DNA of 64,000 nt from Candidatus Pelagibacter sp. (GTDB lineage Bacteria > Pseudomonadota > Alphaproteobacteria > Pelagibacterales > Pelagibacteraceae), in NCBI GenBank assembly GCA_028227525.1, contig JAOJAE010000003.1, forward strand, positions 30,147 through 94,146. Reading direction: 5' to 3'. Position 1 is the first letter of the stretch, and each line of letters opens with the position of its first letter. Positions 11,838 through 46,300 of this stretch are shown piece after piece. The notes beneath the pieces are model-generated. The model was not told the origin of the DNA, searched no databases, and saw only the letters and a program-made list of their open reading frames with translations. The position numbers and the translations under genes were made by a program.

Positions 11838-11851
11838 TATCTTCCTCTTTA

Positions 11852-11863
11852 ATTGTTAACAAT
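11852..11863. promoter_or_regulatory. 12-bp palindrome ATTGTTAACAAT upstream of livK-like gene
   Basis: A perfect palindrome centred on GTTAAC ends exactly 14 bases before the ATG of the binding-protein gene. A second, weaker dyad, GAATATT/AATATTC at 11887-11903, lies further upstream. They could be operators or leader RNA structure. The potD leader has a palindrome with the same core at the same distance from its ATG. Confidence 0.4.
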
Positions 11864-11913
11864 TTATAAAAAGCCAATTTAATTATGAATATTGTTAATA
11901 TTCAATCACAAAA

Positions 11914-19252: not shown

Positions 19253-20404
19253 CTAAAAAAGATTCTTTTTATGTGTCCAAGGTCCAATTTTAGTTTTAGG
19301 TAAAAACTTTTCTAGGTCTAATAGGACATTTTCTGCTAATTTTCTGTAAGTAGTTAATTTACCTCCATAAATACTAAGAAGGGGTAATTTTTTTATTATA
19401 TTTAAGTCAAAAATATAATCTCTTGTAACTTTGGATGCTTGATTGAAATCCTCTATCAAAGGTCTTATTCCAGAATAAGAGTCAACTATATCTTTTGTGC
19501 TAATTTGTTTTTCTAAATAATTATTTACTGAATGAATTAAATATTGAATTTCTTTTTTTGAAATTCCTTTGTTTTCAGGTGATTTAACTTCAACCTCTGT
19601 AGTCCCAATTAGTGAAAATTTTTTTTTATAGGGGATTACAAATATTATTCTCTTATCAGTATTTTGAAATGTAAATGCAATATCTTTCTTATATAATTTT
19701 TTAGTTATAATGTGACTTCCTTTAACTAATCTAATTTTATTTTTTGATTTTATTTTTATATTTTTTTTTAAAGTTTCATTTATCCATGGACCAGATGCAT
19801 TAATTAAAATTTTTGATTTTATTCTCTCCCCCTTTTGAAGATGAATAACCCATTCATTACCATCAATTTCAGCTTTTTTAACTTTATTATATTCTAATAC
19901 TTTAGCTTTATATTTTTTTGCAGACTTTATATTTAATTTGGTTAATTTTTTATCATCAATTTGAACATCAAAATATTGGAAACCAGTTTTAAATTTTTTT
20001 TTAAGAATGTTTGGTAATTTTTTTGAAATATCTAATGTGTTTGACTTTGGTATAATTGTTTTGCCACCTAAATTATCATAAAGAAATAAACCCATTTTAA
20101 TTAACCATGCCGGTCTAATTTTATCAACATATGGGATGATAAAAGGAATAGGTTTTGAAATTGGTCTTGCAATTTTATAAATCGTTTCTCTTTCTTTTAA
20201 AGACTCTCTTACCAGTTTAAATTCATAATTTTCCAAATATCGAAGACCACCATGAATTAATTTAGTAGACCATGAGGATGTTGCGCCACCTATTTCACCT
20301 TTGTCAGCGAGACAAACAGATAAACCTCTGCCTGCAGCATCTCTAGCTAAACCAGCGCCGTTTATACCACCACCTATAATGAATAAATCGAATACTTTTG
20401 ACAT
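19253..20404 (-). CDS. glpD: FAD-dependent glycerol-3-phosphate dehydrogenase, short form (GlpD-like)
   Basis: The N-terminus DLFIIGGGINGAGLARDAAGRGLSV is the FAD-binding motif of GlpD, followed by the family block GGATSSWSTKLIHGGLRYLENYEFKLVRESLKER. Later blocks include LINASGPWIN and SIYGGKLTTYRKLAENVL. It oxidises glycerol 3-phosphate to dihydroxyacetone phosphate at the membrane, feeding electrons to quinone. At 383 residues it lacks most of the C-terminal domain of the roughly 500-residue E. coli enzyme. It would use glycerol 3-phosphate from the Ugp/UgpQ genes at 33.7-39.6 kb. It lies 57 bases after the preceding operon gene. Confidence 0.85.
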   Translation of the reverse strand: MSKVFDLFIIGGGINGAGLARDAAGRGLSVCLADKGEIGGATSSWSTKLIHGGLRYLENYEFKLVRESLKERETIYKIARPISKPIPFIIPYVDKIRPAWLIKMGLFLYDNLGGKTIIPKSNTLDISKKLPNILKKKFKTGFQYFDVQIDDKKLTKLNIKSAKKYKAKVLEYNKVKKAEIDGNEWVIHLQKGERIKSKILINASGPWINETLKKNIKIKSKNKIRLVKGSHIITKKLYKKDIAFTFQNTDKRIIFVIPYKKKFSLIGTTEVEVKSPENKGISKKEIQYLIHSVNNYLEKQISTKDIVDSYSGIRPLIEDFNQASKVTRDYIFDLNIIKKLPLLSIYGGKLTTYRKLAENVLLDLEKFLPKTKIGPWTHKKNLF

Positions 20405-20461
20405 TACAATTATAGATTGTTTATAAAACGTAATTAAAAATTTTCAATAACTTAAATTATT

Positions 20462-21427
20462 TTAGCGCTGGTACTCAATAAATTTTTTTAACGATTGATT
20501 TAAAAATTTTTCATAAATTTGACTTTTAGACGAGAATTTTTTTAAATTTAAAAAAGATCTATTCATTTTAAAATCATATGAAGGTTCAAAGAAAAAAGGA
20601 ACAGAAAGTCTTTTACTTTTGTTCCATAAAACTCGGTGATTAGTTGCTTTAAATTTCCCTCCAGATAAGAATTCAAGAGCTCTACCAGTATTAACTATTA
20701 ATGCATTTTTATTGAATGGCACATCATACCACTTTTTGCTATTTCTATTTTGTACTTGAAGACCTCCTTTTTTGTCTTGATATAAGACAGTAAATATTCC
20801 GCTATCAACATGTGTTTCACAACCAAGAGCAACTCCATCTTGTTTTGAAATTTCTACTGGTTTTGACTGATTGGGATAATAGTTAAACCTTAAAGTGCTT
20901 AATGTTTTTAGTCTTGAAAAAGCTTTTGAAGAAATATCAGGGTTTTTTCTGTTGAGTTTGATGATGCTTTTAAACAAAGTCTCACTCAAATCATAAACAT
21001 TATCAAAGTAATTATTTAAGATATTAATAGCATTTTTATTGAAGCATTTATTTAAATTTAGGTATTCAATGTATTGGCTTCTGATTTTTGAAGCATATGA
21101 TTTGTTAATCCTTAAATCTCCAATATCTAAACCTTCTTTTCCATTCACATTATTAGGAAAGTATCCTCTATAAATATTTTTATTTTTTTTGTTCCATTTT
21201 TTTGGTGCTAATTTATTTTTATTTTCATTTGAAGAGTTAAAAAATTTATTACCAATTTTACAAATATTATTTATTTTTTCTTTATTTATACCATGACCAA
21301 CAATTTGAAAAAAACCAACATTAACACATGCCTTTTCAATTTTTCTTATTGTATTTTTTGAAGCCAAAGTATTAAAATCTGACTTTAATAAAGATGAAAT
21401 ATTAATCGTTGGAATATAGTTTCTCAT
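20462..21427 (-). CDS. Isopenicillin-N-synthase-like Fe(II)/2-oxoglutarate oxygenase
   Basis: The 321-residue protein has an N-terminal DIOX_N region (IPTINISSLL; EKACVNVGFFQIVGHGI) and a C-terminal 2OG-FeII_Oxy core. Iron ligands are predicted at His206, Asp208 (ETHVDSGIFTVL) and His264 (TNHRV), and the cosubstrate contact at Arg273-x-Ser275 (RLSVPFF). Relatives oxidise small molecules and amino acid derivatives. Its start overlaps the end of the DMT transporter gene by one base, inside the choline/carnitine-type operon. Its substrate is unknown; it is one of four 2-oxoglutarate oxygenases in the window. Confidence 0.85.
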   Translation of the reverse strand: MRNYIPTINISSLLKSDFNTLASKNTIRKIEKACVNVGFFQIVGHGINKEKINNICKIGNKFFNSSNENKNKLAPKKWNKKNKNIYRGYFPNNVNGKEGLDIGDLRINKSYASKIRSQYIEYLNLNKCFNKNAINILNNYFDNVYDLSETLFKSIIKLNRKNPDISSKAFSRLKTLSTLRFNYYPNQSKPVEISKQDGVALGCETHVDSGIFTVLYQDKKGGLQVQNRNSKKWYDVPFNKNALIVNTGRALEFLSGGKFKATNHRVLWNKSKRLSVPFFFEPSYDFKMNRSFLNLKKFSSKSQIYEKFLNQSLKKFIEYQR

Positions 21428-22377
21428 TATCTATTAGGAGTATCAGTTACAATCATTTGATCTTTAACTTTTTCTCTAAAATAAATATATATTCCAGCTC
21501 CTATTATTATTGAAACACCAATAAAAGTTCTTATTGTTGGAATATTATTAAAGAGAAGAAACCCTGTTAAAATTGACCAGATTATTAGAGAATATTCATA
21601 AAGCGAAATAACAGAAGGGGACGCTATGCTGTATGCGTTGAAGACAAAATAAAATGCAAAAGCTCCAATACATCCCATTGCCACAATAAATGGCCAAGCA
21701 TAAGATGGGTTTGTGAACCATTCCCTAAAAATAAATTGAAAGGTAGGATCATTAAAATTATCAATTTGTCCATTACCTGTGAAAATATAAAATAAAATAC
21801 TAATTAAAAGTGCCCCAAAATATAAATGTATCATTTGAGTGTAAACATTGTCTTTATCAGAGGTAATTTTAGTAATAGTCATGGATATCGCGTAACATAA
21901 TGCACATGCAACAGGAGCTAATTTCATATAATCAAAATTATTAAAATCAGGATTTAAAACAATATATACCCCTACAAAACCAATAAAAATTGCAGACCAT
22001 CTTCTAATTCCAACTTTCTCTTTTAAAATAAATGTTGCTAATATTGAAACAAAGAATGGACTTGAGAAAAACAAAGCATTTGCCATAGCAAGTGACATAT
22101 AAGTAAGCGAAATATAGAAAAAGCTAAAACCAAAAAAGAAACAAATAACTCTTATAATTGTTAAAAAAGGATAGTGAGTTTTTAAATTTATTTTTTGTTT
22201 TGAAAATTTTAAGTACCCAACCAACAAAATTAATGCAACAAACGTTCTTCCAAAATATAATTCGTACAAGGCTGCATCTTCATATATAAATTTGATCAAG
22301 GCATCCTGAATGGAAAACAATGCCATTCCTATTAAAATAAACAGGATTCCTTTAGAATTGCTTTGTGCAGATGTCAT
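21427..22377 (-). CDS. EamA/DMT-family transporter
   Basis: This 316-residue protein has about ten hydrophobic spans in two EamA repeats, starting with KGILFILIGMALFSIQDALIKFI, which resembles the S-adenosylmethionine- or carboxylate-transporting branch of the DMT superfamily. It overlaps the GMC oxidoreductase gene by four bases upstream and the IPNS-like gene by one base downstream. Export of a surplus intermediate, or uptake, are both possible. Substrate not readable. Confidence 0.82.
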   Translation of the reverse strand: MTSAQSNSKGILFILIGMALFSIQDALIKFIYEDAALYELYFGRTFVALILLVGYLKFSKQKINLKTHYPFLTIIRVICFFFGFSFFYISLTYMSLAMANALFFSSPFFVSILATFILKEKVGIRRWSAIFIGFVGVYIVLNPDFNNFDYMKLAPVACALCYAISMTITKITSDKDNVYTQMIHLYFGALLISILFYIFTGNGQIDNFNDPTFQFIFREWFTNPSYAWPFIVAMGCIGAFAFYFVFNAYSIASPSVISLYEYSLIIWSILTGFLLFNNIPTIRTFIGVSIIIGAGIYIYFREKVKDQMIVTDTPNR

Positions 22378-23957
22378 GAATTGAGAATAAAATTAGACGC
22401 TCTTTCTGCAATCATTAATGTAGGCGCATTAAGATTTCCACTTGTGATCTCAGGCATCACAGATGCATCGACCACTCTAATATTTTCTAAACCATGTACT
22501 TTAAGCTTTTCATCTACCACCGCCATATCATCCATACCCATTTTAAGGGTGCAAGATGGGTGGTAAGCTGTTTCAGCTTTTGATCTTATATATTCTTCAA
22601 ACAGTTCATCAGTTTGAACGTGTTCCCCAGGTCCAGTTTCTTTTCCTGCAAAAGGTTTTAATGAATTTTGACCTAAAATTTTTCTTGCTACATGAATACA
22701 TTCTATTGTCTGTCTTAGATCATCTTCATGCTCTAAATAATTAAATTGAATTTTCGGGTAATCATAAGGATCAGAACTGTTTAATGTAATGTGGCCTCTA
22801 CTTTTTGGATGATTGGGACTTGCATGCAATTGATAACCATGACGATCAGGATCAACTAAACCATGATCAATTACAAAAGCTGGAAAAAAATGAAATTGTA
22901 TATTTGGATATTCTCTTTCAGGAGATGATTTACAAAAACCACCAGCCTCTAAAAAAGAAGTAGAGCAGGGACCAGTTCTAGATAAAAACCACTGAATACC
23001 AATTCTCATCATATTTAATTTATTCACATAAGAATACAAAGTGTCCGAAGTTTTACATTCTTGCTGAACATATGTCTCCAAGTGGTCTTGTAAGTTCCTT
23101 CCAACACCATCAAGATTATGAACCACTTCTATCCCTTTACCTTTCAGATGTTCACTTGGACCAACTCCTGAAAGCATTAATAACTGGGGAGAATTTATTG
23201 CACCACCACTTAGGATTACTTCTTTGTTTGCATAAATCTTTTCTACTTTATTTTTAATTTTAACCTCAATACCGATTGCTTTTTTTCCATCAAAAATTAT
23301 CTTTTCAACAAAAGCTTCTGTAAAAACTTTTAAATTCTTTCTTTTTTTAGCTGGGTTTAAATAATATTTTGAAACACTTGCTCTTTCACCTTTGTGAATA
23401 GTTACATCGTACATTCCAAAACCTTCTTGATCTTCGCCGTTCATATCATTGTTAATTTTGTATCCAGCTTCTCCAGCTGAGTTGATAAACGCTTTAAATA
23501 AAGGATTTTTGTTTTTAGATTGATTAACTGGCAAAATTCCATTTCCGCCACGATATTCATTTTCACCTTCTGACCAAGTTTCAATTTTTTTAAAGAAAGG
23601 TAAAACTTTTTCATAAGACCAGTCTTTTAATCCAAATGATGCCCATCTCTGATAGTCATTAGGATTTCCTCTAACATAAACCATTCCATTATGAGCAGAG
23701 CAACCGCCAATCATTTTACCTCTTGGGCAAAATAGATTTCTGTTATGTAGATGGGGTTCTGGTTCAGAATAATATTTATAATTATATTTTGGATCATGCA
23801 TCGTATATAAAATAGCAAGAGGCATGTTTACCTTCCAAATATCACTTGGTTTTCCAGCTTCAAAAATAGCAACATTATTTTGACTATTTTCAGATAATCG
23901 ATTTGCAAGCACACAACCTGCTGAACCTGCACCTATAATTAAATAATCAAATTTCAT
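22374..23957 (-). CDS. GMC-family FAD oxidoreductase, choline-dehydrogenase-like
   Basis: The 527-residue enzyme begins DYLIIGAGSAGCVLANRLSE (FAD motif) and has the GMC signature PRGKMIGGCSAHNGMVYVRG. The second signature GGAINSPQLLMLSGVGP follows. Near the C-terminus the catalytic region YHPSCTLKMG includes the His typical of choline dehydrogenases, followed by SGNLNAPTLMIAE. Choline oxidation to betaine aldehyde fits the surrounding quaternary-amine genes, but GMC alcohol dehydrogenases also oxidise other alcohols. BetA of E. coli is 556 residues, close to this length. It overlaps both neighbours by four bases. Confidence 0.85.
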   Translation of the reverse strand: MKFDYLIIGAGSAGCVLANRLSENSQNNVAIFEAGKPSDIWKVNMPLAILYTMHDPKYNYKYYSEPEPHLHNRNLFCPRGKMIGGCSAHNGMVYVRGNPNDYQRWASFGLKDWSYEKVLPFFKKIETWSEGENEYRGGNGILPVNQSKNKNPLFKAFINSAGEAGYKINNDMNGEDQEGFGMYDVTIHKGERASVSKYYLNPAKKRKNLKVFTEAFVEKIIFDGKKAIGIEVKIKNKVEKIYANKEVILSGGAINSPQLLMLSGVGPSEHLKGKGIEVVHNLDGVGRNLQDHLETYVQQECKTSDTLYSYVNKLNMMRIGIQWFLSRTGPCSTSFLEAGGFCKSSPEREYPNIQFHFFPAFVIDHGLVDPDRHGYQLHASPNHPKSRGHITLNSSDPYDYPKIQFNYLEHEDDLRQTIECIHVARKILGQNSLKPFAGKETGPGEHVQTDELFEEYIRSKAETAYHPSCTLKMGMDDMAVVDEKLKVHGLENIRVVDASVMPEITSGNLNAPTLMIAERASNFILNS

Positions 23958-24490
23958 ATTAATTTTGACGTTAGCAAGTTTTGATAGTCATGAATAGATT
24001 TCATTTTAATATCAATTTTTTTAGCAGCTTCATCAAATTTTCTAAGAAGTATTGATGATTTGAAGTATTCTTGAGCTTCAAATTTGATACATTCTTTATC
24101 ATTAAGTATACCGCCCTGTAATCTCAAGCTTGTCTTTGAAGCTTCCGATAATAAGTCAAAGTATTTTTTATCTTTAGCAAGATATCTTTTTGCAAGAACA
24201 TGATATTTTATTGGCTCGGTAATTTCTTTTTTAAATATTTTTTTTAAATATTCATAACCAATATCTTCATGTTTACCGTCTAAATTTTCTTTTACTAATT
24301 CATCAGGGTTTTCTAAAATAAAATGACCATAATCATGTAATAAACAAGAGCATATCAAGTCATCATCGCACTTTGCTTTTTCTGCAAGCATTGCAGTTTG
24401 TATCATATGTTCTGACATAGTGACTTGTTCACCTATGTAGAGAGATTTATTATTTATAAAATTTGAAATTATTTTATCAATTATTTGCAT
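23954..24490 (-). CDS. HD-domain mixed-valent diiron oxygenase, PhnZ/TmpB-like
   Basis: This 178-residue protein keeps every residue I recall as functional in PhnZ, at near-constant offset. Tyr18 and Glu21 (YIGE) lie in the gating loop, and the metal ligands are His28, His52-Asp53, His74, His97 and Asp153. Lys101 is in HVLAKRYL, and the LSEASKTSLRLQGG stretch is also of PhnZ type. PhnZ and TmpB cleave the C-P bond of 1-hydroxyphosphonates with O2, releasing phosphate. Generic pipelines would call it an HD phosphohydrolase. A TauD-family hydroxylase gene lies six bases upstream, the expected partner type. Confidence 0.82.
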   Translation of the reverse strand: MQIIDKIISNFINNKSLYIGEQVTMSEHMIQTAMLAEKAKCDDDLICSCLLHDYGHFILENPDELVKENLDGKHEDIGYEYLKKIFKKEITEPIKYHVLAKRYLAKDKKYFDLLSEASKTSLRLQGGILNDKECIKFEAQEYFKSSILLRKFDEAAKKIDIKMKSIHDYQNLLTSKLI

Positions 24491-24495
24491 TAAAT

Positions 24496-25329
24496 TTATT
24501 GAGGATGGTCACCTTCAATTGCAATACGATCCATTATTCGCTCATACCCTAACCCTCGACCAGGAAAGAAATCTGCAATAGCATAATGAATAACACTTCT
24601 ATTGTCCCAGATAGCAACGGCATTTTCAGTCCAATTAAATCTACAAGTTAAATCCAATCTTGCTTGGTGTTCAAATATTTCTTTTAAAATTTGATCACTT
24701 TCTTCTTTATCAAGACCAATAATTTGTTTTGTATAGGTCCAATTAACATATAAGATTTTTTTTCCAGTTTCTGGATGAGTTCTAACAATTGGATGTTCAT
24801 TTGAATAAGAGTCGTAATTTCTTTTTTCATTTCCTTCCATATATTTATAGTTATCAATGAAAAATTCTGCCCCAAGAGAGCTGTGAATTGCTTTTTTATT
24901 TTTTATTTTTTCTTGAATTTTAGGATCTAAGGTTTCCCATGCTAATTCCATATTAGAAAAACAAGTATCACCACCAACTGGAGGTATTTTAATCGATTTT
25001 AGTATTACAGCTTTTGTAGGCTTTGAATTATAGCTGACATCACTATGCCAATTTTCTCCCCATTGGTTTTTTTCTTCTTTTCCTTTTATAATTCTTACTA
25101 TTTCAGGATAATTATCCAATCCTTTGACATAAGCATGAGTTTCCAAAGGTCCAAATTTTTCAGCAAGTGCAATTTGTTGTTCCTTAGTGATAGGCTGATC
25201 TCTAAAAAAAATTACCTTATGTTCTAAAAGTAAATCATTAACTTTTTTGAAATTTTCATCAGATACATCTGTTAAATCAATTCCTTTAATTTCAGCACCT
25301 AATGCTCCAGATAATAATTTAATTTCCAT
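24496..25329 (-). CDS. TauD/TfdA-family Fe(II)/2-oxoglutarate dioxygenase
   Basis: The 277-residue protein shows the TauD pattern: GAEIKGIDLTDVSDENF at the N-terminus, iron ligands His95 and Asp97 in ENWHSDVSY, His248 in NRSVIHYA, and an Arg at about 264 that should hold 2-oxoglutarate (ERIMDRIAI). Taurine dioxygenase cleaves sulfonates, but the family also hydroxylates other substrates. Placed directly before the PhnZ-like gene, it could supply the 1-hydroxyphosphonate that enzyme needs; a sulfonate substrate is the alternative. It overlaps the thioesterase gene by one base. Confidence 0.87.
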   Translation of the reverse strand: MEIKLLSGALGAEIKGIDLTDVSDENFKKVNDLLLEHKVIFFRDQPITKEQQIALAEKFGPLETHAYVKGLDNYPEIVRIIKGKEEKNQWGENWHSDVSYNSKPTKAVILKSIKIPPVGGDTCFSNMELAWETLDPKIQEKIKNKKAIHSSLGAEFFIDNYKYMEGNEKRNYDSYSNEHPIVRTHPETGKKILYVNWTYTKQIIGLDKEESDQILKEIFEHQARLDLTCRFNWTENAVAIWDNRSVIHYAIADFFPGRGLGYERIMDRIAIEGDHPQ

Positions 25330-25796
25330 TATTTTTTTAATTTTCCCGTAATTACTAAATCATTATTTTTAAAATTTGATTTATTTAGATTAATAAAATC
25401 ATCCATTAATTTAACTTTTTCTTGCTCAAACTCTGCAACTTTTCTTTGATTTAAATCTATATATAAAGAAAGCATTTCAAGTGTAGCAGCGAGTTTTTTT
25501 GAAGATTTTTCAATCATTTCCATTTTGAAGTGCAGTCTTTTTTTATCATGATCTAAAAATATAAGATTAATTTCAACTTCATCACCTTCTTTTACTTCAT
25601 TATTATAAGTTGTATGTGTTTCAACAACCATGGTGCTCATGTTTGTTGTTTTTGCAGATTGTTCACCCATTTTAAATTTTTCTAAAATGATTTCCCAAAT
25701 TTGATCAAACACCAAAACATAGTAAGCCATATTCATATGGTTATTATAATCAGTCCATTCTTTTTTAATAATTTGATTTGCTATGTGTATAGACAT
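25329..25796 (-). CDS. Hotdog thioesterase, betainyl-CoA thioesterase-like (CdhB type)
   Basis: The 155-residue protein is a 4HBT-type hotdog with the catalytic stretch WTDYNNHMNMAYYV (Asp16 and His20). The later text VVETHTTYNNEVKEGDEVE and DHDKKRLHFKMEM resembles the thioesterase domain often fused to L-carnitine dehydrogenase. In that pathway it hydrolyses betainyl-CoA to glycine betaine and CoA. Carnitine dehydrogenase and the BKACE enzyme are encoded divergently 1.6 kb away, as separate rather than fused proteins. The functional call rests on similarity by eye plus context. Confidence 0.78.
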   Translation of the reverse strand: MSIHIANQIIKKEWTDYNNHMNMAYYVLVFDQIWEIILEKFKMGEQSAKTTNMSTMVVETHTTYNNEVKEGDEVEINLIFLDHDKKRLHFKMEMIEKSSKKLAATLEMLSLYIDLNQRKVAEFEQEKVKLMDDFINLNKSNFKNNDLVITGKLKK

Positions 25797-26525
25797 TTAA
25801 TTTTTATATTCTGGTTCTTCTTTATCTAAAATTACTTTTATTTGATCAAGATGCAACTTTGCTAAATCAATTGGATAATTTGCAGTTTCTTGAGCAGTTT
25901 TTTCTGCCACTTCATCACTTACAATATTTAGTTCTTTATTAGTAGATAAAGCAGTTAAATAAGTCTCCGCTGCTTTTTCAAAATAATATAAATAATTAAA
26001 ACCCTCAGCGATTGTTTCACCAGTTGTTATAATTCCATGATTAGCTAATAACATATGCTGTTTGTTTCCTAGTGAATTAGCCATTTTAATTGACTCTTCT
26101 TCAAATCCTAATCCACCAAATTCATTAAAAACAGAAACTCTATTATAAAATATCATTGTATTTTGATCTATTGGCTTCATGACAGGATCTTTTAAAGTTG
26201 ATAGAGCTGTTGCATATTTTGAATGAACGTGAAAAATGCATTTTGCGTGTGGAACTTTTTGATGAATTGTACCATGAATATTGATTGCAGTAGGATCAAT
26301 TAAGTCTGGTTTATTTTTTAAATCATTGATGTTTTCTTTTGTGACTAAAATTAAATCACTAGCCTTTATTTGGCTAAAGTGTATTCCAGCTTTATTTACA
26401 TAAAAGTCTGTTGATGAACCAGGGACACAGGCACTAAAGTGATTTGCAACACCTTCATGCATATTTAATCTTGCAGTCCATCTAAAAGTTGCTGCTAAAT
26501 CTTTCTGTAATTCTGTTATTTCCAT
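25797..26525 (-). CDS. Class II aldolase/adducin family protein
   Basis: The protein (242 residues from the ATG at 26525) has class II aldolase motifs: ANHFSACVPGSS, the zinc-type pair in IFHVHSKYATALS and a later His in LLANHGIITTG. Relatives include fuculose-phosphate aldolases and decarboxylases. A longer frame starting at a TTG at 26534 adds only MVK; the ATG (MEITELQ) is the better start. It is the first gene of the minus-strand operon running down to about 19.2 kb and is divergent from the BKACE gene. Its substrate in an amine-degradation operon is unclear. Confidence 0.82.
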   Translation of the reverse strand: MEITELQKDLAATFRWTARLNMHEGVANHFSACVPGSSTDFYVNKAGIHFSQIKASDLILVTKENINDLKNKPDLIDPTAINIHGTIHQKVPHAKCIFHVHSKYATALSTLKDPVMKPIDQNTMIFYNRVSVFNEFGGLGFEEESIKMANSLGNKQHMLLANHGIITTGETIAEGFNYLYYFEKAAETYLTALSTNKELNIVSDEVAEKTAQETANYPIDLAKLHLDQIKVILDKEEPEYKN

Positions 26526-26560
26526 TTTTACCAAATTAAACTATATTTAAATTATAAATT
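26526..26560. promoter_or_regulatory. 35-bp divergent promoter region
   Basis: Only 35 bases separate the divergent ATGs of the aldolase and BKACE genes. The sequence is nearly pure A/T, with TATATT and TATAAA boxes close to both starts. Two promoters must overlap here or transcripts must have almost no leader, so the two arms of the carnitine-type cluster are likely regulated together. Confidence 0.4.
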
Positions 26561-27448
26561 ATGAGCAATAAGGTTTTTATATCATGTGCAGTGACAGGAT
26601 CAGGTGATACTGCTAGCAAGCATCCAGATTTACCAAAAACTCCAGAACAAATTGCAACCGCTTCAATTGAAGCTGCTAAAGCAGGGGCTGCGATAGCACA
26701 TATTCATGTTAGAGAAGAAGATGGTACTCCTAGTCGAAGATTGGAACTCTACAAAGAAGTTGTTGATAGAGTCCGTTCAAGTGACACAGATGTAATTATA
26801 AATTTAACCACTGGAATGGGGGGTGATCTTGATATTGGACAAGGGGACAATCCTTTAGATTTTGGTCCAATGACAGACATGGCAAACGTTATGGAAAGAA
26901 TTGCAAATGCTGAGCAGTTTCTTCCAGAGATTTGTACACTTGATGCCGGAACTTTAAATTTTGGTGATGGCTCAACAATTACAGTGAATACTCCAAATGA
27001 TTTAAGAAAAGCTGCAAAAAAATTAAAAGAAATCAACGTTAAACCAGAAATAGAAGCTTTTGATTTAGGAAATATGTGGTTTGGAGCCCAGCTATATAAA
27101 GAAGGATTATTAAGTGATCCGCCAATGTTTCAAATGTGTTTAGGAATACCTTGGGGTGCGCCAGCTACTACTTTAGCAATGCAGGCAATGAAAGACATTA
27201 TGCCAAAAGAAGGTGTGTGGTCTGGCTTTGCAATTTCTAAAAATGAAATGCCATTTGTTGCTCAAACAGTTTTAATGGGAGGAAACCCAAGAGTTGGATT
27301 AGAGGATAATTTATATTTATCAAAAGGTAAGCTTGCTACTAATGCTCAATTAGTTGAAAAAGCTATAAGAATTATTGATGAGATTGGTTACACACCAATG
27401 ACACCTGATGAAACGAGAGAAAAGTTAAAACTTGTTAAACACAAGTAA
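26561..27448 (+). CDS. BKACE-family beta-keto acid cleavage enzyme, 3-dehydrocarnitine-cleaving type
   Basis: The 295-residue protein is a DUF849/BKACE member with the zinc-binding pair His47 and His49 in IAHIHVREEDG, plus LTTGMGG and a C-terminal NPRVGLEDNLYLSKG. BKACE enzymes transfer acetyl-CoA onto a beta-keto acid. The carnitine version makes betainyl-CoA and acetoacetate from 3-dehydrocarnitine. The next gene, one base overlapped, encodes L-carnitine dehydrogenase, which strongly favours that substrate. Family certainty is high; substrate certainty comes from context. Confidence 0.88.
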   Translation: MSNKVFISCAVTGSGDTASKHPDLPKTPEQIATASIEAAKAGAAIAHIHVREEDGTPSRRLELYKEVVDRVRSSDTDVIINLTTGMGGDLDIGQGDNPLDFGPMTDMANVMERIANAEQFLPEICTLDAGTLNFGDGSTITVNTPNDLRKAAKKLKEINVKPEIEAFDLGNMWFGAQLYKEGLLSDPPMFQMCLGIPWGAPATTLAMQAMKDIMPKEGVWSGFAISKNEMPFVAQTVLMGGNPRVGLEDNLYLSKGKLATNAQLVEKAIRIIDEIGYTPMTPDETREKLKLVKHK

Positions 27449-28389
27449 TGTCTCAAATTAAAAAGATAGCAGTTATTGGAACTGGAGTAATTGGTGCAGG
27501 ATGGATTATTCGTTGTTTAGCCCACAACAAAATTGTTCATGCTTACGATAAAGATATTAAATTAAAGAAAAGTTTAATTAATGAGATTAAAAGAACTTGG
27601 CCATATGTAAAAAAACTTTTTAATAAAAAAACTCTCAATCTTAAAAATTTCAAATATTTTACCTCAATTGAAGATGCTCTCAAAGATGCAGATTTTATTC
27701 AAGAATGCGCAAGTGAAAATTATGCTTTAAAAACTAAGTTGATGAGCACTATTGGAAAATATGCAAAACCGAATGCAATAATTTCATCAAGCTCATCAGG
27801 ATTATTACCAACAAGAATTTATTCTAAATGTAAAAACCCTGAAAGAGCAATGATCGGACATCCATTTAATCCAGTTTATTTATTACCTGCTGTTGAAATT
27901 GTACCTGGAAAAAAAACATCAAAAAAATATTTAGCAATAGCTAAAAAATTTTATAATTCAATTTCAATGAACCCAATAATGGTCAAACATGAGTTGCCTG
28001 GTTATTTATCAGATAGATTGCAAGAGGCTTTATGGAGAGAGGGCTTACATATTATCAACGAAGGTCATGCAACTACAGAAGAATTAGATAGAGCAATTGA
28101 AGATGGACCAGGTTTAAGATGGTCTTTGATGGGAACCTTTTTAACTTTTCATTTAGCTGGAGGAAAAGCAGGAATGAGACATATGTTAGAACAATTTGGA
28201 CCTGCTTTAAAACTTCCGTGGACTAAATTAAAAGCCCCAACTTTATCTAATAAGTTAATTGATAGACTGGTTCAGGGGACTAAAAAACAATCTAAAGGAA
28301 AATCTGTTAGTAAAATTTCAAATATTAGAGATGAATATTTAGTTGAGCTTCAAAAGTTGAGAAAAAGATACGAAAAAAAATTAAGATAA
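27448..28389 (+). CDS. L-carnitine 3-dehydrogenase
   Basis: The 313-residue NAD-dependent enzyme belongs to the 3-hydroxyacyl-CoA dehydrogenase superfamily, with the Rossmann motif GTGVIGAG at 11-18 and the HPFNPVYLLPAVEIVPG stretch. The late block from GPGLRWSLMGTFLTFHLAGG through EQFGPALKLPWTKL is what I associate with bacterial carnitine dehydrogenases (LcdH/CdhA). It oxidises L-carnitine to 3-dehydrocarnitine. Many homologues carry a C-terminal thioesterase domain; this one ends without it, and a separate thioesterase gene is at 25329-25796. The gene ends one base from the convergent SDR gene. Confidence 0.9.
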   Translation: MSQIKKIAVIGTGVIGAGWIIRCLAHNKIVHAYDKDIKLKKSLINEIKRTWPYVKKLFNKKTLNLKNFKYFTSIEDALKDADFIQECASENYALKTKLMSTIGKYAKPNAIISSSSSGLLPTRIYSKCKNPERAMIGHPFNPVYLLPAVEIVPGKKTSKKYLAIAKKFYNSISMNPIMVKHELPGYLSDRLQEALWREGLHIINEGHATTEELDRAIEDGPGLRWSLMGTFLTFHLAGGKAGMRHMLEQFGPALKLPWTKLKAPTLSNKLIDRLVQGTKKQSKGKSVSKISNIRDEYLVELQKLRKRYEKKLR

Positions 28390-28390
28390 A

Positions 28391-29179
28391 TTAATCATTT
28401 CTCTCTGTATGGCCATCAACGGAGATTACTTGACCAGAAACTTTACTAGAGTCGTCTGAGATTAGAAAAGAACACATCTTTCCAATATCTTCTTCCAAGA
28501 TCCATTGTTTCATTGAACTCATTGAAACAAAATCTTTCTCAATAACTTTAGTTGAAACTTTAGTAAATTTTGCCTTATCTCTTATAACTCTTTTCATTCT
28601 ATCTCCCTTAATTGTTCCAGGACATACTGCATTAACTCTAATGTTAAATTTACCAAGCTCCATGGCCAATGTTTTTGTAACACCAATAATTGCCCATTTA
28701 CTTGCCGCATAAGGTGATCGAAGTGGAAAACCAAGTATTCCAGCAGTGGATGAAATATTAATAATTGACCCATTTTTAGATTTTTTAAGTAACGGGATAG
28801 CTTTTTTTGTAAAATAGAAGTGACTATTTACATCTACTTGAATAGTTCTTTCCCAATCTTTAGATTTTAATTTTTCAAGTGAGCCTGTGGGTCCTGCAAT
28901 ACCCACATTATTAATTAGAGCATCTATTTTTTTAGTTTTTTTTTTTACTTTTTCAAAAAAATCTGAAACCTGATTTTCATTTGATGCATCACAAAGGTAT
29001 GCAAACAATCTTTTATTTTTTAATGGGTGTTTATTTAATTTATGAAGTGATTTGTTATCTATATCGCAAAGATAGACAATTGCGCCTCTTGAAAGACAAA
29101 TTTTGACTGTTGCCAAACCAATTCCTGATGCACCTGCTGATATAATAATTTTTTTATTTTTTAATGATTGGTTAATCAT
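28391..29179 (-). CDS. Short-chain dehydrogenase/reductase
   Basis: The 262-residue SDR has the cofactor motif SAGASGIGLAT at about residues 14-24, NNVGIAGPTGSL, a catalytic Ser in NISSTAGILG and YAASK. The C-terminal SGQVISVDGHTERND ending resembles 3-oxoacyl or hydroxy-acid SDRs. It follows the proXWV genes (three bases after proV), so it is in the transporter operon. Possible substrates are a hydroxy acid or amine related to carnitine, or 3-hydroxybutyrate/acetoacetate released by the BKACE step; neither is proven. Confidence 0.85.
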   Translation of the reverse strand: MINQSLKNKKIIISAGASGIGLATVKICLSRGAIVYLCDIDNKSLHKLNKHPLKNKRLFAYLCDASNENQVSDFFEKVKKKTKKIDALINNVGIAGPTGSLEKLKSKDWERTIQVDVNSHFYFTKKAIPLLKKSKNGSIINISSTAGILGFPLRSPYAASKWAIIGVTKTLAMELGKFNIRVNAVCPGTIKGDRMKRVIRDKAKFTKVSTKVIEKDFVSMSSMKQWILEEDIGKMCSFLISDDSSKVSGQVISVDGHTERND

Positions 29180-29182
29180 TAA

Positions 29183-30208
29183 TTATGATTTTGTTAATGA
29201 GGACTGTAATTCTTTATTAGTGATATAGCCTTTGGTGTTTCCATTTTTATCAACTACCTCACAATTAGCGTTGGTACAAACTATTTGTGGTAAAAATTCT
29301 TCTATAAACTGGTCTTCATTAACTCTAACTAGATTTGATTTATCGATACCATTAGTCTCGTTAATATCTGTCATGATGATTTTTGCTTTAATAACTTTCG
29401 CTCTATTAACATCTTTAACAAAGGCTTTTACATAATCATCTGCAGGTTTCATGATAATATCAACAGGTGTTCCAACTTGAACTAATTTCCCTGCATTTAA
29501 AATTCCAATGTGGTCGCCTAATCTTAATGACTCATCAAGATCGTGAGTAATAAATACAATTGTTTTTTTTAATTCTGATTGAAGATCAATCAATTGTTTT
29601 TGCATGTCACTTCTAATAAGTGGATCTAATGCACTAAACGCTTCATCCATTAACATAATATCTGAATTAGTAGCTAAGGCTCTAGCTAGACCAACACGTT
29701 GCTGCATCCCTCCAGATAATTGATTAGGAAACTGGTTTTCAAAACCATTAAGTCCAACTGCTTCAATTTTTTCCATAGCAACCTTATCTCTTTCTTCTTC
29801 AGATTTTCCCTGCATCTCTAAACCATAACCAACATTTTGCATTACGGTTTTATGTGGAAACAAACCAAATCTTTGAAAGACCATACTCATTTTATGTCTT
29901 CTAAAATCTATTAATTGTTCAGGATTAAAACTCATAACATTCTCACCATCAATTAGAATTTCTCCAGCTGTTGGATCGATCAATCTATTTAAATGTCTTA
30001 TTAGTGTAGATTTTCCTGAACCTGATAACCCCATACAAACAAAAGTTTCTCCTTCTTCAATATTTAAAGAAACATTATCTAGACCAACTGTGTGGCCAGT
30101 TTGTTCAAGAACTTCATCTTTTGTAGATCCATTTTGAACCATACCCATTACTGAATCTGGATCATTACCAAAAATTTTATAAATATTATTTATTTCTATT
30201 TTTGACAT
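29183..30208 (-). CDS. proV: Quaternary amine ABC transporter ATPase (ProV/OpuAA type)
   Basis: The 341-residue ATPase begins with the ProV-type lead SKIEINNIYKIFG and has Walker A GLSGSGKST, signature LSGGMQQRVGLARAL and Walker B IMLMDEAFSALDPLIR. A C-terminal CBS-like region follows (residues about 260-341). It is shorter than the roughly 400-residue E. coli ProV, keeping perhaps only part of a CBS pair, which may reduce osmotic gating and suit a nutritional rather than osmotic role. It overlaps proW by one base. Confidence 0.93.
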   Translation of the reverse strand: MSKIEINNIYKIFGNDPDSVMGMVQNGSTKDEVLEQTGHTVGLDNVSLNIEEGETFVCMGLSGSGKSTLIRHLNRLIDPTAGEILIDGENVMSFNPEQLIDFRRHKMSMVFQRFGLFPHKTVMQNVGYGLEMQGKSEEERDKVAMEKIEAVGLNGFENQFPNQLSGGMQQRVGLARALATNSDIMLMDEAFSALDPLIRSDMQKQLIDLQSELKKTIVFITHDLDESLRLGDHIGILNAGKLVQVGTPVDIIMKPADDYVKAFVKDVNRAKVIKAKIIMTDINETNGIDKSNLVRVNEDQFIEEFLPQIVCTNANCEVVDKNGNTKGYITNKELQSSLTKS

Positions 30209-31227
30209 TATTTTTTAACCTTTTTAGCTGGAGCATTTCTCTCCTGAAGAGTTTCACCATAAGATTGAGTAATTCTATCCAACACAATTGCTAATAATAC
30301 AATTGCAATACCAGCTTCAGCAGCACGACCTACGTTTAATTGTTGAAGACCTAAAAGAACCTCATCACCCAAACCTCTTGTCCCGATCATTGAAGCAATA
30401 ACAACCATTGATAAAGCCATCATTGTACATTGGTTAATTCCTTGCATAATATTTGGAAGTGCTAATGGGATTTGAACTCCCCACAATTTTTGTTTTTTGC
30501 TAGCACCAAAAGCATCAGCTGCTTCTGTTACTTCACTGTCTACCAATCTAATTCCTAAATCTGTTAATCTAACCAAAGGTGGTACAGCATATATAAAAGT
30601 TGCAATAATTGCGGGCACAGCACCTAAACCAAATAACATAATTCCTGGTATTAAATACACAAAAGCGGGAATGGTCTGCATTAGATCAAGTATAGGAAGA
30701 ATTTTTTCTCTTACTCTATTTGCTCTAGACATCCAAATTCCAATTGGAACACCTATTATAAGACATAAGAAAATACTGATTAACATTATAGATGTTGTTT
30801 CAATTGCTTTGTCCCAGAATCTTGGATGCAAAAATCCTATAAAAAATGTACAGAAGCCAACAGCAACAGTTGTTTTAATCTTTTTCCCACTAGCAAAATA
30901 GGCAAGTATTACAACACCTATAATTACTAGAGGCCAGGGGGCTTGAACTAAAAAATTTTTAAGCCCCATTAACATAGCAAGTAGAACATTATTTATTGCT
31001 TCAAAAATAAAACCAAAGTTTTCATTTAAAGCTTTGAACCATTTGTTGATCCAGGGCATTAATGGTAAGTCTAACCACTTAGGCCAATTACTTAGCCATG
31101 AAAAATCATTTAATAATTCGCCAACAGACTCTGGTTTTCTTTTAGATGAGCTGTAGCTAGTAACTAATAACCATACAAAAATACCTAACAGACTTAAGTT
31201 AAATAAATTTTTTTTATTTTTAAACAT
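30208..31227 (-). CDS. proW: Quaternary amine ABC transporter permease (ProW type)
   Basis: The 339-residue protein has an N-terminal cytoplasmic and membrane leader, then the ProW/OpuAB core with about six spans. The family coupling loop reads EVTEAADAFGASKKQKLWGVQIPLALPN in two overlapping blocks near residues 230-258. The C-terminus has ALSMVVIASMIGTRGLGDEV. Together with ProV and ProX it imports glycine betaine, choline, carnitine or gamma-butyrobetaine. A hairpin at 31247-31271 separates it from proX. Confidence 0.93.
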   Translation of the reverse strand: MFKNKKNLFNLSLLGIFVWLLVTSYSSSKRKPESVGELLNDFSWLSNWPKWLDLPLMPWINKWFKALNENFGFIFEAINNVLLAMLMGLKNFLVQAPWPLVIIGVVILAYFASGKKIKTTVAVGFCTFFIGFLHPRFWDKAIETTSIMLISIFLCLIIGVPIGIWMSRANRVREKILPILDLMQTIPAFVYLIPGIMLFGLGAVPAIIATFIYAVPPLVRLTDLGIRLVDSEVTEAADAFGASKKQKLWGVQIPLALPNIMQGINQCTMMALSMVVIASMIGTRGLGDEVLLGLQQLNVGRAAEAGIAIVLLAIVLDRITQSYGETLQERNAPAKKVKK

Positions 31228-31246
31228 ATATGATTATAACTAATAG

Positions 31247-31271
31247 AAAGAGCCCAAGTTAAGGGCTCTTT
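31247..31271 (-). terminator. Intercistronic hairpin between proX and proW
   Basis: AAAGAGCCC at 31247-31255 pairs perfectly with GGGCTCTTT at 31263-31271 around a seven-base loop. On the transcribed minus strand only a short U stretch follows, so it is probably a partial terminator or RNA-stabilising stem that makes proX mRNA more abundant than the permease and ATPase mRNA. Confidence 0.8.
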
Positions 31272-31288
31272 CAAATTATTTTATCAGA

Positions 31289-32305
31289 TTATAAAGCAGC
31301 TGTAACTTTTGAAGCTACATCCGCAGGTACCCAACTTTTCCACATTGCTTGAGTTTTTAAGAACTCTTTAGCAGTTAACTCCATATCACCATCAGACTCG
31401 TCTTCGTAGAAGGCTAACATTTTGTTAACTACTGCTGTAGGAATAGTATACTTTTCTAAGAAAGCTGTTTCTGCTGGATTAGCTTTTGCCCAATCAGTTA
31501 AAACAGACTTTGTTAAAGCCATATCTCTATATTCACATGCACAAGATTTAGTGTATGCATCTGGACCATCTGCTTTGATTTTTTCAACAACTGCAGACAT
31601 ATTATTCCAACAATCAGAATCAAACTTAGGTTCTGTTAATCTAACAAGATCAACTTTGCCCATTAAACCAGTAGGTGCCCAGTAGTAAGTAAAGATAGGT
31701 TTTTTCTTAGCAAATGCACCAGCGATAGCAGCATCTAATGCGCCACCAGAACCTGGGTCAAAGTTTGTATAGAAAGCATCTAGACCATACTCTTTTTGTT
31801 TTACTAAGTTTACTGTGTAACAAGTCCAACCTGAAATACAGCTAGTCATTCTACCTTTAGAAGGATTTTCTGGATCTTTAAATAGCGCAGCTATTTTAGG
31901 ATCTTTCATATCCATTACTGACTTAAGATTGTATTTATCAGCTGTAGCTTTATCTACGTAGAAAGCTTGTTGAGAGTCTGGAGTGTTCACACCAATATTT
32001 TTGATCGTACCAGCTTTTTCGTGAGGCTCGTAGTTTGCAATAATATTGTCGTACCAAACTTCAGTGATTACATCTAACTGCTTATCGTAGTGAGCAGCCA
32101 TGATTGGAGTTGTACTTCCTTTAGTTACTGAAACTTCACATCCATACCCTTTTTCAAGAATAAAAGATGCAATAGCAGTATGAATATTTGCACTACTCCA
32201 GTCAAAATCTCCCAGTCTAGCTTTACAATCACCAGCGTTAGCACTAGTTGCTAATAATGACGATACAAAGAAAGCTGAAAGAACTAATTTTTTCAAAAAC
32301 TTCAT
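31289..32305 (-). CDS. proX: Quaternary amine periplasmic binding protein (ProX type)
   Basis: The 338-residue protein starts with a signal peptide (MKFLKKLVLSAFFVSSLLATSANAG, cleavage after about Ala24). It continues as an OpuAC/ProX domain with aromatic-rich stretches EVWYDNIIANYEP and FTYYWAPTGLMGKVDLV that would line a cation-pi cage. It would bind glycine betaine-like cations. The ligand could be carnitine or gamma-butyrobetaine, as the gene is divergent from the GBBH-like gene and near the carnitine enzymes. A strong AAGGAGAT ribosome site precedes the ATG. Confidence 0.92.
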   Translation of the reverse strand: MKFLKKLVLSAFFVSSLLATSANAGDCKARLGDFDWSSANIHTAIASFILEKGYGCEVSVTKGSTTPIMAAHYDKQLDVITEVWYDNIIANYEPHEKAGTIKNIGVNTPDSQQAFYVDKATADKYNLKSVMDMKDPKIAALFKDPENPSKGRMTSCISGWTCYTVNLVKQKEYGLDAFYTNFDPGSGGALDAAIAGAFAKKKPIFTYYWAPTGLMGKVDLVRLTEPKFDSDCWNNMSAVVEKIKADGPDAYTKSCACEYRDMALTKSVLTDWAKANPAETAFLEKYTIPTAVVNKMLAFYEDESDGDMELTAKEFLKTQAMWKSWVPADVASKVTAAL

Positions 32306-32410
32306 TTAATTATCTCCTTAGGTTAAGTTTTATTATCAAGATTTAATAATGAATGAAGATAAAACACAAGAGCTGAATCCTATTTACAACTATAAATTGA
32401 ATTGAATTTT

Positions 32411-32432
32411 TAATCATAATATATAATGATTA
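32411..32432. promoter_or_regulatory. Dyad over TATAAT box, divergent proX / hydroxylase region
   Basis: TAATCAT at 32411-32417 and ATGATTA at 32426-32432 form a perfect seven-base dyad with eight bases between, and a TATAAT box occupies 32422-32427. The ATG of the hydroxylase gene follows three bases later, so its transcript would have almost no leader. The 130-base divergent region (32306-32435) otherwise shows only the proX ribosome site and A+T-rich DNA. A repressor site is inference. Confidence 0.4.
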
Positions 32433-32435
32433 ATC

Positions 32436-33563
32436 ATGAGCTCAATTTCAAAATTAGAGAAAAATTCTAATTATTTAAAAGTTGTTTGGGATGATGGTGA
32501 GGAAAGCAAGTTTAACTATTTATGGTTAAGAGATAATTGTCCATCTGCACACGATAAAGACTCTCGTCATAGAATGTTTAATATTTTGAACATTTCTACA
32601 GATATTAGACCAAAAACTTATAATGTTAATAATAATGGAAGCTTAGAAATTGAGTGGAGCGAAGGGGATCACAAAAGCTCATATGATCCTTCATGGCTAA
32701 GAGAAAATTGTTACACGATAAAAAATAAAACTAAATATGTTTCACCATACAAACTTTGGGATAATTCATTACAGAATAATTTAAAATCAATCGAAATAGA
32801 TTATGATGAAATAATTAATTCAGAAGATGGATTAATTAAATGGTTAGAGCTTTTACATTATACAGGAATAGCAATTGTCAAAAATGCACCAGTTGAAAAA
32901 AATTCAGCTTTTAAAGTTCTAAATAGAATAAGTCATACTAGAGAAACTTTTTTTAAAACTCCATTTGAAGTAATCAATATTCCAAAACCAAATAATTCAG
33001 CTTATACAGCTCATGCATTAAGAAATCATATGGATCTTCCTTGGTTTGAAAATCCTCCAGGATATCAATTTTTACATTGTTTAATTAATTCTGCAAAAGG
33101 TGGAGATTCTTCTGCGGTTGATGCTTTTGCTGTTGCAGATTACTTAAGAAAAAATGAAAAGGAAATTTTTGATACTTTAGTTTCAGTTCCATTAAAATTT
33201 AAAGATAAAGATTATACTCAAGAGGCACACAGAAGCTTTCATTCTCCCGCTATAACTTTAACTAAAGATGGGGATTATAATGATATTAGATTTAGTGTTG
33301 CTACCATGGACACATTAGATTGCAATCCAGATATAATGGAAAAAGTTTATAAAGCTCATCATCGATTTGGAAATTTATTACATGATGAAAAATATCAAAT
33401 CAATTTTAGGCTAGAACCAGGTGATATATTCTCATTTAACAATAGGAGACTTCTTCATGGTAGAACTGAATTTGATCCAAATTCAGGTCATAGACATCTA
33501 CAGGGTTATTATATGGACCGAGATGAAATCATTGGAAGACTGAAATACTTAAAACAAATTTAA
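32436..33563 (+). CDS. Gamma-butyrobetaine hydroxylase-family Fe(II)/2-oxoglutarate dioxygenase (GBBH or TmpA)
   Basis: The 375-residue protein has the two-part layout of the family: an N-terminal GBBH-like domain (residues about 10-105, with WLRDNC at 30-35 and WLRENC at 87-92) and a TauD-type core. Iron ligands are His198, Asp200 and His341, and the signature LLHGRTEFDPNSGHRHLQGY with a following YMDRDE is clear. GBBH makes L-carnitine from gamma-butyrobetaine; TmpA, a close relative, hydroxylates 2-trimethylaminoethylphosphonate. The first zinc motif reads DNCPSAHD, so the Cys-rich zinc site of eukaryotic enzymes looks incomplete. Confidence 0.85.
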   Translation: MSSISKLEKNSNYLKVVWDDGEESKFNYLWLRDNCPSAHDKDSRHRMFNILNISTDIRPKTYNVNNNGSLEIEWSEGDHKSSYDPSWLRENCYTIKNKTKYVSPYKLWDNSLQNNLKSIEIDYDEIINSEDGLIKWLELLHYTGIAIVKNAPVEKNSAFKVLNRISHTRETFFKTPFEVINIPKPNNSAYTAHALRNHMDLPWFENPPGYQFLHCLINSAKGGDSSAVDAFAVADYLRKNEKEIFDTLVSVPLKFKDKDYTQEAHRSFHSPAITLTKDGDYNDIRFSVATMDTLDCNPDIMEKVYKAHHRFGNLLHDEKYQINFRLEPGDIFSFNNRRLLHGRTEFDPNSGHRHLQGYYMDRDEIIGRLKYLKQI

Positions 33564-35000: not shown

Positions 35001-35012
35001 AAAATAATATTA

Positions 35013-35042
35013 ATGAGGAGGATATTAAAGTATCCTCCTCAT
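35013..35042 (+). terminator. Intercistronic terminator hairpin after ugpB
   Basis: ATGAGGAGGATA at 35013-35024 pairs perfectly with TATCCTCCTCAT at 35031-35042 around a six-base loop, followed by TTTTT. It lies 10 bases before the ugpA ATG and should stop most transcripts after ugpB, keeping binding-protein mRNA in excess. Confidence 0.88.
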
Positions 35043-35052
35043 TTTTATATGT

Positions 35053-38653: not shown

Positions 38654-38655
38654 AT

Positions 38656-43869: not shown

Positions 43870-43873
43870 AGAT

Positions 43874-45040: not shown

Positions 45041-45079
45041 ATTACTTGATTATCAATCTAACAAATGTTTTAAAGTACT

Positions 45080-46165: not shown

Positions 46166-46193
46166 TCATTTATAATCATTTATAATTATTTAC
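46164..46193. repeat. Three imperfect 10-bp tandem repeats upstream of potD
   Basis: AATCATTTAT at 46164-46173 and 46174-46183 are identical, and AATTATTTAC at 46184-46193 differs at two positions. The ten-base period places the A/T tracts on one face of the helix. The first copy overlaps the potA stop. An upstream promoter element or protein site is possible. Confidence 0.5.
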
Positions 46194-46201
46194 ATAACAG
46201 A

Positions 46202-46256
46202 TTAGTCAATTTAACCATAATCAACTGTTGACTAAGCTAATCTATATTGTTTTAAT
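46202..46256 (+). promoter_or_regulatory. potD promoter with overlapping operator-like dyads
   Basis: TTGACT at 46228-46233 and TTTAAT at 46251-46256, spaced by 17 bases, each match the sigma-70 consensus at five of six positions. The -35 box lies in the right arm of an inverted repeat, TTAGTCAA at 46202-46209 and TTGACTAA at 46228-46235. A shorter dyad, TCAAC-T-GTTGA at 46221-46231, overlaps the same -35. Repressor control is inference. Confidence 0.55.
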
Positions 46257-46274
46257 TTAACTTTATAAAAACTA

Positions 46275-46286: not shown

Positions 46287-46300
46287 AAATAGGAGAATAA

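Follow-up and report, generated by a model that had tools for sequence, protein, structure and literature searches.

A SAR11 genomic island predicted to gather N-methylated compounds into glycine betaine carries a TmpB/PhnZ-type oxygenase gene

A glycine-betaine genomic island has already been described in Arctic SAR11 bacteria (PMC12421898, mBio 2025), and the Fig. 5 legend in the available part of that source gives its genes as HADH/HIBDH, ALDH, LGL/VOC, GPDP/GDPD, BBOX1, ABC transporter, ADH/SDR, CDH, BKACE, class II aldolase, thioesterase, (SMR), BBOX2/TauD, CHDH and DMT. A matching gene order is found in the DNA analysed here, a stretch of 64,000 nucleotides from Candidatus Pelagibacter sp. 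(assembly GCA_028227525.1, contig JAOJAE010000003.1, positions 30,147 to 94,146), hereafter the window. We propose, with a probability of roughly 70%, that this part of the window forms a genomic island of SAR11 through which N-methylated compounds are channelled into glycine betaine; gene identities by similarity, the clades of its BKACE and gamma-butyrobetaine hydroxylase (GBBH)-family enzymes, conserved residues and co-occurrence are the observations from which every substrate and all flux named below are inferred. Compared with the Arctic island, as the available text of PMC12421898 presents it, the window has an HD-domain TmpB-like gene in place, lacks SMR in that stretch and has a Ugp-like transporter inserted; a related locus (L025) has the SMR form. 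The available text does not include the HD oxygenase in its gene list, and the word 'phosphonate' does not occur in its main text. It reports that the arrangement was not found in 18 earlier single-contig genomes, whereas we find BKACE in 61 of 297 family genomes, the one set over which all family-wide gene counts given here were made. The chemistry has been described in other systems, and the core of the island is published; the HD gene makes the window a variant of it.

The carnitine genes also resemble the cdhCAB cluster of Caballeronia and Burkholderia, which we take to be the Pseudomonas-type cluster known from characterisation in Pseudomonas. In this cluster, as in the window, cdhC and cdhA are adjacent on one strand and the thioesterase is a separate gene, and in Burkholderia a GBBH gene lies nearby. 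Unlike the cluster, the window has its thioesterase on the opposite strand, a different transporter and no GlxA-type regulator among the scanned island genes. A further likeness is to the TmpA/TmpB pathway of Leisingera, whose HD enzyme, in the accessible parts of PMC10574752 and PMC8177086, has di-iron ligands and a YxxE loop like that of the window. A true TmpA, as in Leisingera, is part of some of the related islands in SAR11; the window is without one.

A sequence-only reading of positions 19253 to 33563 had named a GBBH-family hydroxylase, an L-carnitine dehydrogenase, a BKACE enzyme, a betainyl-CoA-thioesterase-like protein and ProXWV. The named genes are present as intact open reading frames (ORFs) where that reading placed them, with family scores far above chance; all bit scores given with a cut-off are against curated family models, each with its own cut-off. 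The CdhC-like BKACE, a putative 3-dehydrocarnitine:acetyl-CoA transferase (26561-27448, plus strand), scores 310 bits on PF05853 (cut-off 25) and matches genome records of SAR11 at 99% identity; the window belongs to the Pelagibacteraceae. It is 57-58% identical to the BKACEs of the Burkholderia and Caballeronia clusters and 59% to that of Novosphingobium, and carries HIHVR at residues 47-51, presumably with a role in metal binding. In a tree of 40 rows it falls in a ten-row clade (support 98/93) with six of seven cdh-linked BKACEs and three of unknown linkage, while the seventh (L112) joins it in a wider clade of 13 rows (97/93). The window BKACE shares a fork (96/87) with BKACEs linked to fused carnitine 3-dehydrogenases, and the lysine-fermentation enzyme Kce lies outside. 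Rows labelled 'non' in this tree have no CdhA match inside loci of 2.7-3.9 kb, and some of them may be carnitine-linked.

The adjoining CdhA-like enzyme, a putative L-carnitine 3-dehydrogenase (27448-28389, plus strand), ranks PRK07066 (L-carnitine dehydrogenase, 365 bits) at the top of 20 models, yet does not reach its cut-off of 414; PRK07531 (carnitine 3-dehydrogenase) follows with 295 bits, PRK06129 with 215, and the rest shown with 109 or less. It is 47-49% identical to the CdhA proteins of Burkholderia and Caballeronia, one of them annotated as L-carnitine dehydrogenase. In alignment, the stretches GHPFNPVYLLP..VEIV and RWS.MGTFL...AGG.AGMRH are common to it and the carnitine enzymes, and absent from lambda-crystallin. 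The CdhB-like thioesterase (25329-25796, minus strand; hotdog fold, 4HBT_2) scores 88 bits on PF13279 and 63 bits over the C-terminal thioesterase part of PRK07531, whose cut-off of 592 applies to the whole fusion; models, tblastn and alignment all find hotdog-fold kinship to the fused and separate Cdh thioesterases. In the annotated Caballeronia M1242, genes for a substrate-binding protein, BKACE, L-carnitine dehydrogenase and thioesterase are consecutive. In records of Burkholderia cenocepacia and B. stagnalis (L113, L114), which are unannotated there, BKACE, CdhA, thioesterase and GBBH lie together by tblastn, which also located the genes in GC-rich plasmid loci.

The BKACE clade, the dehydrogenase models and the neighbours in cdh clusters thus bear out the carnitine part of the sequence-only reading, and make a strong case that the locus would encode the conversion of L-carnitine to glycine betaine. 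The CdhA-like enzyme would oxidise L-carnitine to 3-dehydrocarnitine, the BKACE would convert this with acetyl-CoA to betainyl-CoA and acetoacetate, and the thioesterase would release glycine betaine from betainyl-CoA. Placement outside the carnitine clades would have spoken against this route; the BKACE lies within one, and the dehydrogenase fits by models, motifs and neighbours, with the base of its tree open.

The carnitine genes tend to occur together across the family. CdhA is found in 60 of the 297 genomes and GBBH in 72; of 65 genomes with CdhA or BKACE, 56 have both (Fisher p 2e-49), and 59 of the 61 BKACE genomes also carry GBBH (Fisher p 1e-46), p-values that overstate independence, as the sample consists of related genomes, some of them incomplete. 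All three genes are present in 54 of the 78 genomes with any of them. CdhA is distant from the island in some genomes (e.g. G010, G065), yet still co-occurs. Of 366 BKACE relatives confirmed among the collected genomes, the best 80 were fetched as loci, and with 24 loci around HD matches these form a set of 104, some from one genome. BetA, thioesterase, BKACE and SDR genes are together in 78 of these 104 SAR11 loci, a sample selected by BKACE or HD and hence not a frequency. The spacing of BKACE and CdhA varies: in L004 (11203-18084) genes of 2-hydroxyacid-dehydrogenase, Rieske, ring-hydroxylating, glutamine-synthetase-like and hydrolase type are inserted between them, and L025 has ORFs there of similar size, a likeness by size alone. 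In one relative (G293:C1:53267-54206) the CdhA match is split into two pieces with stop codons.

The GBBH-family 2-oxoglutarate (2OG)/Fe(II) hydroxylase (32436-33563, plus strand) is the candidate for the preceding step. It scores 313 bits on TIGR02409 (cut-off 415) and 280 on the TmpA model, also under cut-off; among solved structures TmpA scores 180.7 bits and human GBBH 174.6. Scores alone cannot separate this enzyme from TmpA. In a tree of 29 rows, eight rows, either the solved TmpA or HD-adjacent genes, form a TmpA clade (97/95), and the SAR11 enzyme lies outside it. It groups instead with human GBBH, whose long branch makes its placement unsure, and with the Burkholderia cdh-linked GBBHs, which are 34% identical to the window enzyme; the SAR11 enzymes form a long branch of their own (1.57). 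In alignment, the window enzyme keeps H198xD200 and H341 as putative Fe ligands (HxD...H) and R353 as the putative 2OG arginine. Two stretches that read HTDNPYRDP and NNRS in the nearest TmpA rows are HMDLPWFENPPG and SVAT in the SAR11 enzyme. N287 and R288 of TmpA bind the phosphonate (PMC9296572, available text), and in the alignment both are absent from the SAR11 enzyme; two divergent HD-linked rows (L101, L128) also lack NNRS. Identity of the window enzyme with TmpA, prompted by the structure score, was rejected on the tree and these residues. It is plausible that the SAR11 enzyme hydroxylates gamma-butyrobetaine, and it would then probably supply carnitine to the arm described above.

The transporter between these genes comprises a ProV/ChoV-type ATPase (29183-30208; TIGR01186 366 bits, cut-off 327), a ProW/ChoW-type permease (30208-31227; TIGR03416 279 bits, cut-off 363) and a substrate-binding protein (31289-32305; PF04069 153 bits), all on the minus strand. 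Among solved structures the binding protein scores best on 7yle, with 100 bits against 56 for E. coli ProX; we take 7yle to be the structure of DmpX, the dimethylsulfoniopropionate (DMSP)-binding protein of the Ruegeria work. The alignment of the two has in common a YYWAP stretch, which we assume to hold the DMSP-binding tyrosine. Because 7yle is the best relative and YYWAP is shared, the transporter is assigned to the betaine/DMSP class. The sequence-only reading had placed ProXWV in the carnitine route; Ruegeria DmpX is DMSP-specific with little affinity for carnitine, according to the available text of PMC10030565, and carnitine uptake by this transporter is unsupported.

There is good support for a second arm, in which choline would feed glycine betaine through a GMC dehydrogenase and an aldehyde dehydrogenase. 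The choline-dehydrogenase-like GMC enzyme (22374-23957, minus strand), which lies inside the interval and had gone unnamed, scores 747 bits on PRK02106 (cut-off 605) and 686 on TIGR01810 betA (cut-off 732). The betaine-aldehyde-dehydrogenase-like gene (40671-42101, minus strand) scores 426 bits on TIGR01804, the top of 41 models and under its cut-off of 669. The 'complete-looking' route of the sequence-only reading had left out the acetoacetate co-product. Since a PF01144 CoA-transferase for acetoacetate was found in none of eight relatives' genomes, acetoacetyl-CoA synthetase was tried, and it is above cut-off in 8 of 10; this enzyme, encoded outside the locus, likely reclaims the acetoacetate. 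The betaine itself is likely demethylated by a member of the homocysteine S-methyltransferase family, needed for this step and found in 8/8 genomes.

The second gene unnamed in the interval encodes the HD-domain TmpB/PhnZ-type, putatively C-P-cleaving oxygenase (23954-24490, minus strand). It scores 168 bits on TIGR03276 (cut-off 215), 151 on the TmpB model NF049941 (cut-off 300) and 132 on the PhnZ1 model (cut-off 300), reaching none of them; the relative in L101 of the SAR11 HD protein of L100 likewise scores 151 bits on the TmpB model. Among solved structures TmpB (6npa) is best with 111.7 bits, followed by PhnZ with 90.8. The protein keeps H28, H52, D53, H74, H97 and D153 and the loop residues Y18 and E21; the H...HD...H...H...D metal ligands and YxxE loop are marks of both PhnZ and TmpB (PMC8177086, available text). 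A YxGExVTMxEHM stretch is common to the window protein and TmpB, not PhnZ. The HD tree, with only four starred forks and mostly open, was not used to split TmpB from PhnZ. Close relatives (at least 56% identity) are present in 30 of the 297 genomes, one of them (G014) with an internal stop, and six more genomes with a relative at about 40% identity were left out of this count.

True TmpA, for which the reference L100:3053-4186 reaches 532 bits where the cut-off is 400, is found (at 73-100% identity to that reference) in six genomes, all among the 30 with HD and none among the other 267 (p 7e-7, likewise overstated for related genomes). It adjoins the HD gene in L100 and L145; in L142, L145, L146 and L147 it adjoins HIBDH, dimethylglycine-dehydrogenase-like or DMT genes bordering the island, and in G130 it lies 2.4 kb past the fetched stretch. 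In the window an EutA-like gene comes after the HIBDH-type gene (42124-43065).

Next to the HD gene lies a TauD/RdpA-like 2OG dioxygenase (24496-25329, minus strand; PF02668 203 bits), which scores 196 bits on RdpA and at most 172 on the taurine dioxygenases; by its position it is the nearest candidate for a partner hydroxylase. It is found in 32/41 HD-positive and 10/37 HD-negative loci; strict coupling of the two genes is ruled out, since TauD is missing in nine of the former and present in ten of the latter. ProX was found in 26/41 HD-positive and 0/37 HD-negative loci, which are related, partly HD-selected and partly cut by contig ends. An association with ProV was dropped, as a second ProV, 51% identical, also passes the 45% filter. 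In genome G001 the HD gene, with BetA, TauD and thioesterase genes, lies about 27 kb from BKACE on one contig. A quaternary-amine phosphonate arm in the island is possible. In it the HD enzyme would release glycine betaine and phosphate from an alpha-hydroxylated quaternary-amine phosphonate, e.g. hydroxylated trimethylaminoethylphosphonate (TMAEP), and the preceding hydroxylation would fall to the TauD-like enzyme, the GBBH-family enzyme or one encoded beyond the window. We suggest tentatively, as an idea with clearly less than even odds, that in part of SAR11 the TmpB-like oxygenase of the island and a non-TmpA hydroxylase (TauD-like or SAR11 GBBH) split such phosphonates in this way, and that many Pelagibacterales 'phnZ' genes encode this enzyme.

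Besides the relatedness of the sampled genomes, several points weigh against reading the locus as a betaine-gathering island. No curated carnitine model was reached at its own cut-off by the dehydrogenase, the thioesterase or the GBBH-family enzyme; the thioesterase is only 27-29% identical to those of the Burkholderia and Caballeronia cdh clusters; and the dehydrogenase tree is unresolved at its basal fork, the six labelled carnitine rows splitting off in 30% of bootstrap trees. Five of 61 BKACE genomes have no CdhA match and four of 60 CdhA genomes no BKACE match. Among the 72 GBBH genomes, 13 are without both CdhA and BKACE; of the eight of these that were fetched, two reach a contig end (L135, L137) and six look like local absence of the two genes. 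In human GBBH two asparagines hold the acid group of the substrate (PMC9296572, available text), and the SAR11 enzyme keeps one of them; the second, which the Burkholderia cdh-linked GBBHs retain, is absent. Gamma-butyrobetaine hydroxylation, as put forward in the sequence-only reading, is favoured by the position outside the TmpA clade; given this absence and the 13 genomes, it is held to be no more than likely. On the phosphonate side there is no TmpA among the window ORFs, of which just the GBBH-family gene matches the L100 TmpA, at 29% identity. TmpA is also missing from 24 of the 30 HD genomes, so another hydroxylase must serve there if the HD enzyme acts on phosphonates.

Four other explanations were weighed against the betaine-island interpretation. 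With TmpA as its top solved relative and the HD enzyme only 8 kb off, the GBBH-family enzyme could be TmpA, giving a full TmpAB pathway for TMAEP in the window with gamma-butyrobetaine not involved; its position outside the TmpA clade, the lack of HTDNPYRDP, N287 and R288, the presence of SAR11 GBBH as a second gene in five of six true-TmpA genomes and the absence of the HD gene from 43 of 72 GBBH genomes make this very improbable. It is unlikely, though it deserves real weight, that the enzyme uses another betaine together with a class II aldolase and adjoins the carnitine genes without feeding them. Such an aldolase-like gene lies directly before GBBH in four of the eight GBBH-only loci (L131, L132, L133, L138; Pfam checked for L131), and in a set of 18 plasmid loci chosen by their GBBH matches it follows four Roseobacter-group genes (L120-L123) and precedes one from Paracoccus; the missing asparagine fits this too. 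Set against it are the presence of GBBH in nearly all BKACE genomes and its position beside cdh genes in the two Burkholderia records. The dehydrogenase, BKACE and thioesterase might also act on another 3-hydroxy osmolyte, e.g. a sulfonium compound yielding DMSP, rather than on carnitine. Gonyol-like sulfonium hydroxy acids occur in dinoflagellates, the binding protein is closest to 7yle, taken to be DmpX, and the carnitine models stay under cut-off; with the BKACE inside the carnitine clade, and carnitine-named genes near BKACE together with a GlxA regulator in all four annotated relatives (L109-L112), we regard such a substrate as improbable.

The last alternative concerns the HD protein, which may be an ordinary PhnZ for 2-aminoethylphosphonate (AEP), or of methylphosphonate type, rather than TmpB-like. 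The higher score on TIGR03276 than on the TmpB model, the open HD tree and the many HD genomes lacking TmpA are in line with this, as is the counting of Pelagibacterales sequences among phnZ holders in the available part of PMC9381506. TmpB is nevertheless the best solved relative and shares the YxGExVTMxEHM stretch, TmpA occurs only in HD-positive genomes, and the carnitine BKACE is present in 28 of the 30 genomes with HD; we therefore consider an ordinary PhnZ doubtful, while granting it an appreciable chance.

Several further genes complete the locus. A class II aldolase/adducin-family protein (25797-26534, minus strand; PF00596 136 bits) has distant matches to aldolases and NovR/TqaM among solved structures; in L131 (8581-10463) the class II aldolase gene overlaps the start of GBBH by one base. 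An SDR oxidoreductase (28391-29179, minus strand; PF13561/PF00106) lies between the dehydrogenase and the ABC transporter, and mostly adjoins CdhA in SAR11 loci. Downstream of GBBH, a Ugp-like ABC transporter and a glycerophosphodiester phosphodiesterase-like gene (33693-39579, plus strand) could supply choline esters. Positions 33693-35000 score 268 bits on PRK10974 and 35053-35931 score 267 on PRK10561, both under cut-off; genes in 35931-39579 take their names from the translation and from the genes listed for the Arctic island. Two related UgpE-like permease genes stand in tandem in this operon (35931-36752, 36749-37600), and relatives also have both, with matches of about 63-66% between their second gene and the first copy. 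Positions 43126-49599 hold EutA-like (202 bits, cut-off 318) and ectoine-hydrolase-like (444 bits, cut-off 613) genes, then a Pot-type ABC transporter, a relative of which adjoins the carnitine-clade BKACE in Parasedimentitalea L112. A GlpD-like gene at 19253-20404 (383 residues) covers only positions 4-392 of a 508-position model, the C-terminal part being absent. L101 has, at 10824-12475, a further GBBH-family gene (334 bits on the TmpA model, under its cut-off of 400) that overlaps the divergent HD gene; the pair lies near BHMT and dimethylglycine-dehydrogenase-like genes, and relatives of this GBBH-family gene are found in L134-L136 and L141.

Carnitine metabolism is mentioned for offshore SAR11 genera in the available part of PMC12636525, and that of PMC8316502 reports marine homologues of trimethyl-AEP type, for which SAR11 is not named. 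In the literature covered, which leaves most subscription papers outside and makes this a weak negative, no SAR11 HD or TmpA gene tied to this island was found. Pelagibacter ubique is able to grow on glycine betaine in place of glycine, which it cannot make (PMC12478193, available text). Feeder routes to betaine matter for such very abundant ocean heterotrophs. If locus records named SAG-MED and GOM are read, as we assume, as Mediterranean and Gulf of Mexico, the core of the island is not Arctic-only. The carnitine arm would give a substrate to roughly one in five of the family genomes in the sample (61/297). The phosphonate arm, if true, would let one island supply methyl groups, glycine and phosphorus; it would couple the supply of betaine to the release of phosphorus, and alter the reading of marine phnZ counts.

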